A stretch of DNA of 64,000 nucleotides from Natrinema salsiterrestre (GTDB taxonomy: Archaea; Halobacteriota; Halobacteria; Halobacteriales; Natrialbaceae): contig NZ_JAMQOT010000006.1 in assembly GCF_029502005.1 (NCBI RefSeq), forward strand, positions 186,001-250,000, given 5' to 3'. Position 1 is the stretch's first letter, and each line of letters opens with the position of its first letter. Below the pieces are notes generated by a model that saw only the letters and a list, made by a program, of their open reading frames with translations, had not been told where the DNA came from and ran no database searches. Of the stretch, positions 2,144-6,872 are shown piece after piece. The position numbers were made by a program, and so were the translations under genes.

Positions 2144-3010
2144 ATGGACTCGATCGAAGAGAAACGCGTCTACGGCGATCGCGGCGGGGCGATTACCGTC
2201 TACATCGCGAGCGGAATCGGCGTCGTCCGCGTCCGCGTGGCCGGCGACGCCGTCGGCGAATTCGGTCTCTGCGAGCGGTGTGACGCTCGAGACGTCGCGG
2301 CGACCCGCGGCGGCGTCGCGGTCGCGACCGACGAGGACGTTCGGCTACTCGACCTTCCGGACGGAGCCGGTGTCGACGAACCGGCAGACGAGACCTTCGT
2401 CGGGACGGACTTCGGCCCGGCGGTCGCCGTCGGCAACGACGACGGCGAGCTGATCGCGGCCGGCCCGGACGGCCGCGTGGCCGCTCGACCGGCCGGAACC
2501 GACGAGTGGACGACGCTCGAGGACGAGGTCGGTCGAGCGGTGCGAGCGATCGACGGCGATCTCGTCGGGACCGACGGCGGCGTCTACCGCGTCCACGACG
2601 GCGGGCTCGACCACGCCGGACTGACGGACGTCCGGGACGTCTCGGCCGCCGGCGTCCCGCTCGCCGCCACCGCCGACGGACTCTACAAGCTCGGCAACGG
2701 CTGGATGGAGATCCGCGAGGGGGCGTTCGACGTCGTCGCGGCCGATCCGCGCACGGAACCCGGCCGTCTCGAGCGCGCACACGCGGTCGCGGACCGGATC
2801 CTCTACGAGTACGACGCGACCGACGACGAGTGGCAGAAGGGGAGTCGCTCGAGCGACCGGATCGTCGGCGTCGACTACGGCGAAACGGTGTACGCCGTCA
2901 CGGCCGGCGGCGTGTTCCGCACGGCGACGGACGGGACGTGGCGAAAACGAGCGCTCGGCGTCACCGACGTAACGGGCATCGCAGTGCCGCGCTACGCGGC
3001 CGACAGCTGA
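2144..3010 (+). CDS. HVO_0234-family beta-propeller-like protein
   Basis: A 288-residue acidic, probably cytoplasmic protein with repeated short strands of the type G-G-V-Y-R-V, D-G-L-Y-K-L and G-G-V-F-R-T at about 40-50 residue spacing, the pattern of beta-propeller blades. I recognise it as the haloarchaeal HVO_0234 family, whose function is unknown. A C-x-x-C pair lies near residues 43-46. It sits just upstream of prs on the same strand, but a separate TATA-like sequence before prs suggests independent transcription. A TTTTC-rich TATA-like stretch near 2113-2118 precedes the ATG by about 28 bases, consistent with a leaderless mRNA. Confidence 0.7.
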   Translation: MDSIEEKRVYGDRGGAITVYIASGIGVVRVRVAGDAVGEFGLCERCDARDVAATRGGVAVATDEDVRLLDLPDGAGVDEPADETFVGTDFGPAVAVGNDDGELIAAGPDGRVAARPAGTDEWTTLEDEVGRAVRAIDGDLVGTDGGVYRVHDGGLDHAGLTDVRDVSAAGVPLAATADGLYKLGNGWMEIREGAFDVVAADPRTEPGRLERAHAVADRILYEYDATDDEWQKGSRSSDRIVGVDYGETVYAVTAGGVFRTATDGTWRKRALGVTDVTGIAVPRYAADS

Positions 3011-3165
3011 CGCTGCGAGTCCGGAACCGAGCACTCGTTTAAGTGGTTCTGGTCACAAGGTGAAGCTACGAAGGGCTTTTGCGGACAGCGCTACCGCTCG
3101 CGGAGCGGCGCGTCTCTCGGTCCGAGAACGAAAACTGGTTTACCCCCCGGCCTGTCCCACCGACT

Positions 3166-4023
3166 ATGATCGTTAGCGGATCCACGTCGCAGACGCTCGC
3201 CGCAGCGCTCGCACGCGAACTCGAGGAACCGCTCGCTGCGGTCGAGTACGACCGGTTCCCCGACGGCGAACTGCTGGCGGCCGTCCCCGGCGTGGCCGAG
3301 GCCGAGCCGTATCGGGCGGTGATCGTCGCGTCGACGCTCTCGAGCGACGCCCACCTCGAGGTGCTCCAGTTACAGGACGCCGTCCGGGAGGCGGGCGTCG
3401 AGAAGGTCGTCACCGTCCTTCCCTACATGGGATACGGCCGACAGGACGCCGCGTTCGAGCCGGGACATCCCGTTTCCGCGCGGGCCGTCGCCCGTGCGAT
3501 TTCGACGGGCGCGGACCGCGTGGTGACGGTCAATCCCCACGAACGGGCGGTCTGCAAGTTCTTCGAGCCGACCGCGACCGCGGTCGACGCGGCGGGTCGA
3601 CTGGCCGAGCCGCTCCCCGCCGACCTCGCGGATCCGGTCTTCCTCTCTCCCGACGCGGGTGCCGTCGAGCTCGCGGAGACGGTCCGGGACACGTACGGCG
3701 CGGGCGAGACCGACTACTTCGAAAAGACGCGCCACTCCGGTACTGAGGTGGATATCTCGCCCAGCGACGTCGACGTCGCGGGCCGCGACGTGGTCGTCGT
3801 CGACGACATCATCGCGACGGGATCCACCATGAGCGAAGCGGTCGCCGTGTTACAGGAACGAGACGTCGGTCGGGTCTTCGTCACCTGCGTTCATCCGCTC
3901 CTCGCGCGCGACGCCGTCACGAAACTCTCGCGGGCCGGCGTCGAGGCGATCTACGGCACCGACACCATCGAGCGCGGTGTCGAGACTATTTCGGTCGCCC
4001 CGGCGCTCGCAACGAACCTGTAA
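3166..4023 (+). CDS. prs: ribose-phosphate pyrophosphokinase (PRPP synthetase)
   Basis: A 285-residue enzyme that makes phosphoribosyl pyrophosphate from ribose-5-phosphate and ATP, the precursor for nucleotides and histidine. It has the family layout: N-terminal segment with F-P-D-G-E, the YMGYGRQD motif, the VNPHE segment with its conserved histidine and the PRPP-binding loop VVVDDIIATGSTM. The in-frame extension upstream to 3079 is not protein-like. I chose the ATG at 3166 because the protein then begins MIVSGSTSQ, as expected for archaeal Prs, and because a TTTACC box lies 25 bases upstream. Prs supplies upp, hisA and hisB, which are all in this window. Confidence 0.92.
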   Translation: MIVSGSTSQTLAAALARELEEPLAAVEYDRFPDGELLAAVPGVAEAEPYRAVIVASTLSSDAHLEVLQLQDAVREAGVEKVVTVLPYMGYGRQDAAFEPGHPVSARAVARAISTGADRVVTVNPHERAVCKFFEPTATAVDAAGRLAEPLPADLADPVFLSPDAGAVELAETVRDTYGAGETDYFEKTRHSGTEVDISPSDVDVAGRDVVVVDDIIATGSTMSEAVAVLQERDVGRVFVTCVHPLLARDAVTKLSRAGVEAIYGTDTIERGVETISVAPALATNL

Positions 4024-4146
4024 CTAAACGATTAAGTGGTGGCCAGACATCGTGCTTAGTTGGTAGCGCGTGGCACGAGACGGTCTCGGCCGCGACGAAT
4101 GCGAATCGGAATCGGACCGATTGCGGACAACGGACTAATCGACCAG

Positions 4147-4686
4147 ATGCACGGAATCGTCCACAAGACCCTCAAGGAGTACGTCGTCGACCGAACCGAC
4201 GACGGCACCTGGGACACGATCGTCGAGCGATCCGACCTCGAGCCGAAGCTGTACCTCCCCGTCTCCCACTACGACGACGCGGAGATCGACGCGATCCTCG
4301 AGACGCTCTCGACGATGGCGACCCAGGACAGACGCGCGATCGAGCGGGATTTCGGCAAGACGCTCGCTCCCGAACTACTCTCGACGTTCAGCGCTCACAT
4401 CCGCGGCGACTGGGACGTCGACGAACTCCTCGGCGGACTCGAGGACGTTTACGACGACATCGATAGCGCGACCGAGGAAACGTCGCTTCCGGCGATATCC
4501 TGTACGCTGGAGTCCGATCACGCGGTCGTCACGTACGACACTCACCGCGACCAGCAGTACTGCGGGCTGGCCCACGGGGTCCTCGAGGGCGTGATCGCCG
4601 CGTTCGACGGCGACGCGCCCGTCACGAAAACGGCCTGTGTCGACGACGGCGCCGAGCGCTGTGAGTTCCGCGTCGACCTCGAGTGA
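4147..4686 (+). CDS. H-NOX-like (heme NO-binding domain) protein with Tyr at the proximal ligand position
   Basis: A 179-residue single-domain protein of the HNOB/H-NOX family. It opens with MHGIVHKTLKEYVV and ends with a distal segment GVLEGVIAAF, both typical. H-NOX domains sense NO or O2 through a heme bound by His102, with a YxSxR motif holding the propionates. Here residue 102 is Tyr in LEDVYDDI, P115 is kept, and YxSxR reads YDTHR (130-134), so the heme-binding signature is altered. The reading frame stays open upstream to 4060; starting at MHG gives the usual family N-terminus, but an ATG at 4099 is possible. No kinase or cyclase partner is adjacent. Confidence 0.75.
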   Translation: MHGIVHKTLKEYVVDRTDDGTWDTIVERSDLEPKLYLPVSHYDDAEIDAILETLSTMATQDRRAIERDFGKTLAPELLSTFSAHIRGDWDVDELLGGLEDVYDDIDSATEETSLPAISCTLESDHAVVTYDTHRDQQYCGLAHGVLEGVIAAFDGDAPVTKTACVDDGAERCEFRVDLE

Positions 4687-4772: not shown

Positions 4773-6872
4773 TCAGCCGCGCCGAGCGAGCAGTGTAGCT
4801 GCGAGCGCCGTCACGAAGGCGACGAGCGCAGCTGGCATACCGAATCCGGGTACGTCATCGACCGCCGCGGCCGGGCCGCCGCCGACGCTGACGACCGCGG
4901 TCCGGTCGCCGACGGCCACCTCGTACCGGCCGTCCTCGTCGAACCGGAGTTCGGCATCGACAGTCGTCGTCTCGCCGGGTCGGAGCGCCACCGACCGGTT
5001 GGCGACGGTGCCGTCTACCGTCCGGAACTCGAGGACGGCCGCCGCCGGCCGATCATCGGCGGCTTCGACCGTCGCGGTCGCCGTTACCGGTTCGCCTGGC
5101 TCGATGCTGTCGGGCGCGACCTGCAGGTCGGTGACGGTCACGCTCGCGGACGAACGGACGACCGCCGTGAGCCGATCCGAGCCGACGCGGATATCGTACT
5201 CGCCGGGATCGGATGGCGTCCACGAGAGGGCGTGGCTCGTCTCCTCGCCCGGTGGGAGGGTCCCCCGCCGGTGGTCGACCACCCGTCCGTCGACCTCCAG
5301 GGTCGCGTCGTAGGTTCCCTCGCGATCGCCGGCGTTCGTGACGGTGCTCGGAATCGTCACCGGTTCGCCGGCCGGAACCGCGATGACGTCGGGGTCTCCG
5401 TCGGTACCGCTGGTCTCCGCGGCCGTCCAGCGCGGCCACTCCTGTCCCCCGACCTCGATCGGATCGGACCCCAGTCCGTACTCGAAGGCGGCCACCTCCT
5501 GATCGAAGGCGCTCCGGTGTTGGCTCCGGCTCCACATCTCCGGGGTGGACTCGGTTCGCGTGTACTGTTCCGCCACGGCGCGGACCTTCGCGCCGCCGTT
5601 GTCCTCGATCGCCCCCAGGAAATCCGCCTCGGTCACCGTCCCCTCCTGAGCGTTCAGCGTCCGGAACACGTCCTCGAGCGTGCGATCGCCGTCCGTCGCG
5701 ATTCGGAGCTGTCGATCGATCTCGCCGTAGGCGAGCGCTCCTTTCGTGTACGGCGTGTTCGGATCGTCCCACGTCGAGGGATCGGAGAGCACCGCGTCGG
5801 CGTAGGACGACCGTTCACCCCGCTCGAGGAGGCCGCTGAAGTCGCCGAAATCGGTACGCCCGCTCTCGAGGGCGAGCAGGCCCGCGTAGTAGTCGGCCTG
5901 CCCCTCGACGACCCACTTCGTCTCGGGGGCGGTGTCGTCGCTCCTGCCGGAAAACCGCTGACGAACGTGGACGTACTCGTGAAGCCAGACCGGGTTCGGC
6001 TCGTCGAGCGTGGCGTCGTCGACGACCCACGCGTCCGACGCTCCGTACTGAATCCCACGTTTCGATCCCCAGTCGATATCGCTCGGCACTGCGACCATGA
6101 AGACCTCGTCCCGCCGCGATCCGACCGCGAGTCGTTCGCGAGCGTCCGCGAGCGCTGTGAGGATCGCGTCCGGCGACTCTTCGAGGTCCGCGACCTCGGG
6201 AACGATCAGCCTGATCCGCCCGCCGTCGACGGCTCGCTCGTGCTCCGTTACTTCGCCGAAGAAGGCGATGTCGCCGCCGGTCGCCCCCGGTCCGTCGACG
6301 CGCGCCGACCGCTCGAGGCCGACCGACTCGGTTCCTCGCACCGAGATTCCCACGTCGGGGACCGGTACGATACCCCACTCGCCGGTGTCGATGAACGTGT
6401 AGCCCTCGCTCGAGGAACCCACGCCGCTCTCGTCGCCACCGCCCCGTCGATCCGCCGGCATCGTGTACCGGATCATCGGTTTATCGGTGTCCTCGGTCCA
6501 CTCGAACGTCCGCTCGCCGGTCCGCTCGAATCCCGACATCGACTCGACGGTCGCAGCCCCCGCGAGTTCGATCTCGAGTTCCGTCACCGAATCCGGCACG
6601 TGGACCGTCAGTTCCGCCTCGAAAACGTCGGGGTCGTCAGGTCGATGGTGAAGGACCGTCTCCCGGAGAACGACGTCCTCGGAGCCGCTGGTCGCCGCCG
6701 AGCCGGCGTTCGTCCCGACCGACGCGAGCGACTCGCTGGGGACGGGGCCAGCGGTCGACTCAGCGGTGACTGGCGACGCAGTCGCCTGTGCCGGCTCGAG
6801 CGCACCGACGCCAGCTGGCAGACTACCGACGAGCAAGACGACGAACGCGAGGACGGCGACCCGAGAGTTCAC
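4773..6872 (-). CDS. secreted gluzincin-type metalloprotease with PGF-CTERM anchor
   Basis: A 699-residue exported protein starting at a GTG. It has an N-terminal signal peptide (residues 1-25), a low-complexity linker and then a peptidase-like domain with HEYVH at 298-302 and a downstream Glu in EGQADYY (E323). This gives HExxH plus a Glu 20 residues later, the zinc site of gluzincins (M1/M61-like). Two beta-sandwich CARDB-like domains follow, at roughly 480-570 and 575-660. The C-terminus carries PGFGMPAA, a hydrophobic stretch and ARRG, the PGF-CTERM signal cleaved by archaeosortase A for lipid anchoring. Probable role: surface proteolysis; the substrate is unknown. Confidence 0.8.
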   Translation of the reverse strand: MNSRVAVLAFVVLLVGSLPAGVGALEPAQATASPVTAESTAGPVPSESLASVGTNAGSAATSGSEDVVLRETVLHHRPDDPDVFEAELTVHVPDSVTELEIELAGAATVESMSGFERTGERTFEWTEDTDKPMIRYTMPADRRGGGDESGVGSSSEGYTFIDTGEWGIVPVPDVGISVRGTESVGLERSARVDGPGATGGDIAFFGEVTEHERAVDGGRIRLIVPEVADLEESPDAILTALADARERLAVGSRRDEVFMVAVPSDIDWGSKRGIQYGASDAWVVDDATLDEPNPVWLHEYVHVRQRFSGRSDDTAPETKWVVEGQADYYAGLLALESGRTDFGDFSGLLERGERSSYADAVLSDPSTWDDPNTPYTKGALAYGEIDRQLRIATDGDRTLEDVFRTLNAQEGTVTEADFLGAIEDNGGAKVRAVAEQYTRTESTPEMWSRSQHRSAFDQEVAAFEYGLGSDPIEVGGQEWPRWTAAETSGTDGDPDVIAVPAGEPVTIPSTVTNAGDREGTYDATLEVDGRVVDHRRGTLPPGEETSHALSWTPSDPGEYDIRVGSDRLTAVVRSSASVTVTDLQVAPDSIEPGEPVTATATVEAADDRPAAAVLEFRTVDGTVANRSVALRPGETTTVDAELRFDEDGRYEVAVGDRTAVVSVGGGPAAAVDDVPGFGMPAALVAFVTALAATLLARRG

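Follow-up and report, generated by a model that had tools for sequence, protein, structure and literature searches.

The window analysed here (64,000 nucleotides of Natrinema salsiterrestre, assembly GCF_029502005.1, contig NZ_JAMQOT010000006.1, positions 186,001–250,000, forward strand) carries a gene for a protein resembling the H-NOX heme sensors, but with tyrosine at position 102, where the proximal histidine of the heme would be expected. The original prediction saw in this either a tyrosine-ligated heme or the loss of heme. How such a protein might work, and whether the substitution is peculiar to this gene or the property of a wider group, is the question raised by this locus.

The gene and its product

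The frame is open for 179 codons plus stop (Table 1). An alternative start, TTG at 4060, would give a product of 208 aa; the start at 4147, already used in the original prediction, is the better one because its Met is matched by an aligned Met in all 88 related sequences without the proximal His (the His-less sequences, see below). The protein matches Pfam HNOB (PF07700) at 1e-21 and 78 bits (cut-off 25.5) over profile positions 1–159 of 163. Its best solved sequence relatives are entries of the H-NOX protein of S. oneidensis (So), one of which, 2kii, is matched at 4.4e-10. An AlphaFold2 model, computed with 17 orthologs alongside the window protein (mean pLDDT 77, pTM 0.77), has the H-NOX fold; a structure prediction had been suggested as a check. 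The top PDB fold match is again S. oneidensis H-NOX (4u99, TM 0.87; Z 20.4, rmsd 2.4, 176 aligned residues). Judged by descent and by modelled fold, the product is an H-NOX (HNOB) protein, and judged by alignment it fails the defining feature of the heme sensors, the proximal His.

The C-terminal part also matches V4R (PF02830; 9e-6, 26.1 bits, below the curated cut-off of 31), MetOD1 (0.011) and MsvR (0.0017, far below cut-off). A Cys cluster has been described for V4R and MetOD1 (PMC5847659). What separates the window protein from V4R, MetOD1 and MsvR-type domains is that its full-length match is to HNOB, and that it has no DNA-binding or kinase part. Two further H-NOX genes are present in the same genome (contigs C11 and C20), with 30% and 33% identity to the window protein over the alignment, and both have the proximal His.

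Table 1. Features of the window discussed in the text (positions are those of the window).
Feature	Position	Strand	Remarks
HVO_0234-like beta-propeller gene	2144–3010	+	near 75/88 His-less, 0/58 His-type sequences
prs, ribose-phosphate pyrophosphokinase	3079–4023	+	Pfam match on 3103–4020; open frame, start probably further in
His-less H-NOX (HNOB) gene, 179 aa	4147–4686	+	open frame, Pfam HNOB, fold match
His6 codon	4162–4164	+	His in 84/88 His-less, 0/58 His-type sequences
Tyr102 codon (TAC), proximal heme-ligand position	4450–4452	+	
Pro115 codon	4489–4491	+	kept in 84/88 His-less sequences
YDTHR, corresponding to the heme-propionate motif YxSxR	4534–4548	+	Arg kept in 82/88 His-less sequences
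Cys139 codon	4561–4563	+	counterpart of a zinc ligand in the S. oneidensis protein (ligand identity from PMC7108781)
Cys164 codon	4636–4638	+	aligns with an S. oneidensis zinc ligand (same source)
Cys172 codon	4660–4662	+	aligns with an S. oneidensis zinc ligand (same source)
CARDB-domain protein	4773–6872	-	near 70/88 His-less, 0/58 His-type sequences

Residue 102 in haloarchaeal homologues

In the family alignments Tyr102 falls on the proximal His (His103 of the S. oneidensis protein), and the stretch from residue 102 to Pro115 is gap-free, with the same spacing as in nine H-NOX proteins of other archaea. The assignment of Tyr102 to the proximal position is borne out by both observations, and the original prediction was equally right about Pro115, which is kept, and about the YxSxR counterpart, which has the Tyr and the Arg, with Thr in place of Ser.

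Homologues were collected by searching for HNOB in overlapping genome samples of the family (125 genomes, 81 with a match) and the order (392 genomes, 91 with a match). All matches within the family and all those outside it were fetched and aligned with the S. oneidensis protein; three of 113 family matches (L160, L161 and L162) were dropped as partial, broken or divergent. A sample of 392 genomes of the phylum gave 14 non-haloarchaeal genomes with a match, of which nine full-length sequences (L204–L212) were added and five partial or weak ones omitted. Residue 102 is His in 58 of the 146 haloarchaeal sequences (referred to here as His-type), Tyr in 46, Ala in 12, Thr in 11 and Val in 10, with Ser (3), Arg (2), Ile (2), Leu (1) and Phe (1) as rarer states. 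Such a survey had been proposed as a check on the window gene; with 88 of 146 sequences lacking His, the substitution is not a one-off. The clade that these 88 form (see below) is notable because His is described as absolutely conserved among the 598 H-NOX sequences surveyed in PMC7108781. No account of a His-less haloarchaeal H-NOX clade was found in the open-access literature searched.

A single loss followed by drift

Trees were computed with column 102 excluded, by quick searches giving SH-aLRT support only. The 88 His-less sequences form one clade in the haloarchaeal tree (SH-aLRT 96), and do so again (SH-aLRT 97) when the nine H-NOX sequences of other archaea, all with His, are included as outgroup. 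His is thus taken as the ancestral state. The node joining the 88 to a clade of 52 His-type sequences has an SH-aLRT support of just 1, too low to single out the His-type group nearest to them. Nineteen early-branching His-less sequences, from several haloarchaeal families, have Tyr (18) or Phe (1) at position 102, while the remaining 69, a subclade that includes the window protein, have Tyr in 28 and other residues in 41. Tyr therefore looks like the founding state of the His-less clade, and the trees indicate that the proximal His was lost once, early in the haloarchaea, its replacement most likely being Tyr.

Within the window's subclade the Tyr has been replaced repeatedly, by Ala, Thr, Val, Ser, Ile, Leu or Arg. 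The first six of these are not normal heme ligands. Parsimony counts at least 8 losses of Tyr102 within the His-less clade, or 10 if it was never regained. Column 102 changes 22 times in this clade, more often than 72% of columns (the median being 16), and not at all in the 52-sequence His clade. The genes as a whole are nevertheless constrained: dN/dS is 0.04–0.36 in all 18 computed pairs, including pairs in which both members lack Tyr, and neighbouring pairs with S/S, V/V, A/A or T/T at 102 give 0.08–0.36. On these values the His-less genes as a group are under purifying selection, and the presence of 88 such relatives under selection makes the substitution in the window more than a matter of chance.

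A heme ligated by tyrosine was considered first as the mechanism of the whole clade, and was set aside in view of the way residue 102 drifts. As an account of the window protein, with Tyr102 taking over from His102, it is not without attractions. Tyr is the commonest His-less state (46 of 88); it is present in 18 of the 19 early-branching sequences, where, with L200 excluded, column 102 is among the 33 of 179 columns that are invariant in the other 18 (two of the 33 being gap columns); and Tyr102, Pro115 and Y-x-S/T-x-R occur together in 37 of the 88, the window protein included. Tyr-ligated heme is also known from other folds (PMC7462610). Against this, the losses of Tyr have occurred in genes that are still under purifying selection, no set of sequences has Tyr and Arg invariant together, and in human sGC beta the exchange of the His for Cys (H105C), itself a potential ligand, leaves the protein without heme (PMC8196705). 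Tyr ligation is consequently regarded as improbable. The two-part proposal of the original prediction has fared unevenly: ligation by Tyr does not hold as a mechanism of the group, whereas the loss of His ligation stands, at the level of sequence.

Heme-pocket residues

The pocket is better kept than the ligand position. Tyr130 is conserved in 86 and Arg134 in 82 of the 88 His-less sequences, as are the glycines of the hinge, Gly70 (88/88) and Gly144 (87/88). The conservation is, however, split. In the 69-sequence subclade of the window, Pro115, Tyr130 and Arg134 are each present in 69 of 69, while among the early-branching 19, which nearly all have Tyr102 (18/19), Arg134 is found in 13 and Pro115 in 15. 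This split disfavours Tyr-ligated heme as a shared mechanism, since the sequences with the most constant Tyr are not those with the most constant pocket. The invariance of Pro115, Tyr130 and Arg134 in the window's subclade, at the same time as residue 102 drifts, is the best argument that its pocket is still doing something. Some positions are newly fixed: Phe81 occurs in 88/88 His-less sequences versus Tyr in 58/58 His-type, and Leu35 and Leu37 are new in the His-less clade, each in 88/88.

The missing His is most simply read as a loss of heme, and retention of Pro115 and of the Arg of YxSxR is odd for an empty pocket. Nor is a flat rule of no His, no heme safe, because the H103G mutant of the S. 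oneidensis protein was solved with Fe(II)CO (2kil, by its title). The pocket may still be used without axial ligation, with Y-x-S/T-x-R and Pro115 holding a heme by its propionates alone, a tetrapyrrole without iron, or some other carboxylate ligand. The invariant residues of the 69-sequence subclade and the heme kept by the H103G mutant are both consistent with this, as are cinaciguat-type compounds bound to H-NOX domains in 4iae, 5mnw and 7d9t, by the titles of these entries. The lower conservation of Arg134 and Pro115 in the early-branching sequences speaks against it, and the motif could instead serve the fold; overall, we consider a ligand in the pocket somewhat unlikely, yet to be kept in mind. 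A more elaborate version, to which we give slightly less credence, is that after loss of the iron ligand the pocket has been kept for a new job in a single-copy gene tied to prs (see below), where Y-x-S/T-x-R and Pro115 would bind an unligated tetrapyrrole, or a carboxylate ligand other than heme, that is read together with the cysteine/zinc site.

A histidine that might compensate for the loss was sought among the seven that the window protein has, and His6 alone is general in the clade while missing from the His-type sequences. His2 and His84 are common to both groups, while His41, His133 and His143 are new, but are present in 45, 47 and 57 of the 88, respectively, and His125 is found in 18. 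His6 lies in the first helix, whose residue 5 is known to contact the heme in Tt H-NOX; the fold matches include I5F and site-5 structures. Its distribution (84 of 88 His-less versus none of 58 His-type sequences) and this neighbourhood would suit an axial ligand moved to residue 6, but in a helix residue 6 is turned by about 100 degrees relative to residue 5, and the His may instead serve the fold or a partner. A transfer of ligation to His6 appears highly unlikely.

Zinc-site cysteines

The three cysteines aligned with zinc ligands of S. oneidensis H-NOX, Cys139, Cys164 and Cys172 (together, Cys3), are complete in 77/88 His-less and 58/58 His-type sequences, and their columns change only 4, 5 and 3 times, respectively, versus a column median of 16. 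Ten of the 11 His-less sequences with incomplete Cys3 also lack Tyr102. Cys3 is present in 45/46 of the sequences with Tyr versus 32/42 of the other His-less ones (Fisher p 0.003), although these sequences are related and so do not provide independent evidence. The fourth ligand position is Lys161 in the window protein, and E, K or R in 80/88 His-less sequences, not His or Gln. At this position Glu is found in 54/58 His-type as well as 38/88 His-less haloarchaeal sequences, and His in S. oneidensis.

Two further observations concern this region. The H-NOX proteins of other archaea (L204–L212, mostly from fragmentary genomes) keep the His, and the three zinc-site Cys are absent from them in the alignment. 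Acidic low-complexity insertions occur between Cys164 and Cys172 in L199, L120, L122, L139 and L158, L199 being without Cys at 164.

Gene neighbourhood and copy number

Neighbouring genes were scored by tblastn with eight queries over a span of about 4 kb, which contig ends cut short at some loci. In 84/88 His-less sequences prs precedes the H-NOX gene on the same strand, and it is near none of the 58 His-type (an ORF-based pass found it in 74, the tblastn pass in 84); the distance from the matched end of prs to the start of the H-NOX gene is 26–543 bases, with a median of 126. A phosphomannomutase-type gene of the window is similarly found near 73/88 His-less and 0/58 His-type sequences. In the window the HVO_0234-like beta-propeller gene and prs follow each other on the same strand (2144–4023), an arrangement widely kept beside the His-less H-NOX gene. 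A link to PRPP synthesis is suggested by gene order only.

The surroundings of the His-type genes are of another kind. In 44/58 of them an MCP gene follows on the same strand, and cheA is nearby in 14/58 and cheW in 19/58, while the His-less sequences have an MCP gene in reach in 1/88 and cheA or cheW in none. Around the window gene, over about 4 kb, neither MCP nor che genes turned up, and a kinase, cyclase or receptor gene was not seen next to it. All 88 genomes carry exactly one His-less copy. Given its single copy, its fixed place and this pattern of neighbours, the His-less gene behaves like a core gene of these lineages, inherited vertically and no longer tied to chemotaxis.

One of the excluded sequences, L161 (reversed locus, about 3967–4497), is a broken His-less copy with matches in three frames, directly behind an intact prs. 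A decaying gene without function could account for this copy and for the loss of zinc-site Cys in 11/88, but is hardly to be reconciled with the low dN/dS of 18/18 pairs, the intact frames of the 88 sequences used and the single copy in a fixed place in 84/88; we regard decay as very unlikely indeed.

Proposed function and relation to known H-NOX proteins

Established at the level of sequence are the loss of His ligation, its restriction to a single clade, the later freedom at position 102, selection elsewhere in the protein, and the keeping of Cys3 and of a fixed genomic place. As a working explanation, which we rate a little short of an even chance, the window protein would be an H-NOX paralog without axial heme ligation, most likely heme-free, that signals through the Cys3/zinc site. 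After the single loss of the proximal His, the protein would no longer use an axially ligated heme and would most likely be heme-free in the cell. Signals would be sensed at the Cys3/zinc site next to the hinge glycines (Gly70, Gly144); oxidation of the cysteines to disulfides would rotate the two subdomains relative to one another, as has been reported for heme-free V. cholerae H-NOX and for Caulobacter H-NOX. The output partner is not a neighbouring MCP, CheA or CheW. Weak points of this explanation are the retained pocket residues, the ability of the S. oneidensis H103G mutant to hold heme, the incomplete Cys3 of some sequences and the fourth ligand position, which is not His or Gln.

The window protein shares with bacterial heme H-NOX (S. 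oneidensis SO2144) homology over the whole length, the fold, Pro115, the Tyr and Arg of YxSxR, Cys 139/164/172 and the glycine hinge, and differs from it in lacking the proximal His and in having Lys, rather than His or Gln, as fourth zinc ligand. Closer parallels to the proposed function are the heme-free H-NOX of V. cholerae, in which oxidation is sensed at the zinc Cys (PMC7108781), and the Caulobacter H-NOX, which is activated by oxidation of zinc-ligand Cys (PMC12329717). The three zinc-site Cys are common to all of these, as would be, on the reading proposed here, an output without NO-heme chemistry. Unlike the window protein, however, those of V. cholerae and Caulobacter have retained the proximal His, can bind heme and act on the kinase HnoK. 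The His-less clade offers a natural test of heme-independent H-NOX signalling, as proposed from these heme-free proteins.

A second parallel is the 'pseudo-H-NOX' of sGC alpha, which has lost heme binding and, in human alpha, is without the His (PMC8196705, PMC5322342). Both are H-NOX paralogs, and the haloarchaeal protein would share the heme-free state. sGC alpha differs in being part of a cyclase and in having a pocket filled by an N-terminal extension, which the 179-aa window protein does not have. Among prokaryotes, the His-less clade may be seen as the counterpart of this sGC alpha domain, itself still unexplained.

Since the clade scores far above the cut-off of the Pfam 'haem-NO-binding' family, annotation by name would make its members NO/O2 heme sensors despite the absent heme ligand, and the label is probably misleading for them. 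The two types can be compared within one cell, as the same genomes often (31 of the 88) also have a His-type paralog beside a chemotaxis receptor gene (57 have no His-type copy among the sequences used). Five genomes outside the family (L173–L176, L180) carry a tandem pair of His-type H-NOX genes, some of them beside cheA, cheW or cheC-like genes.
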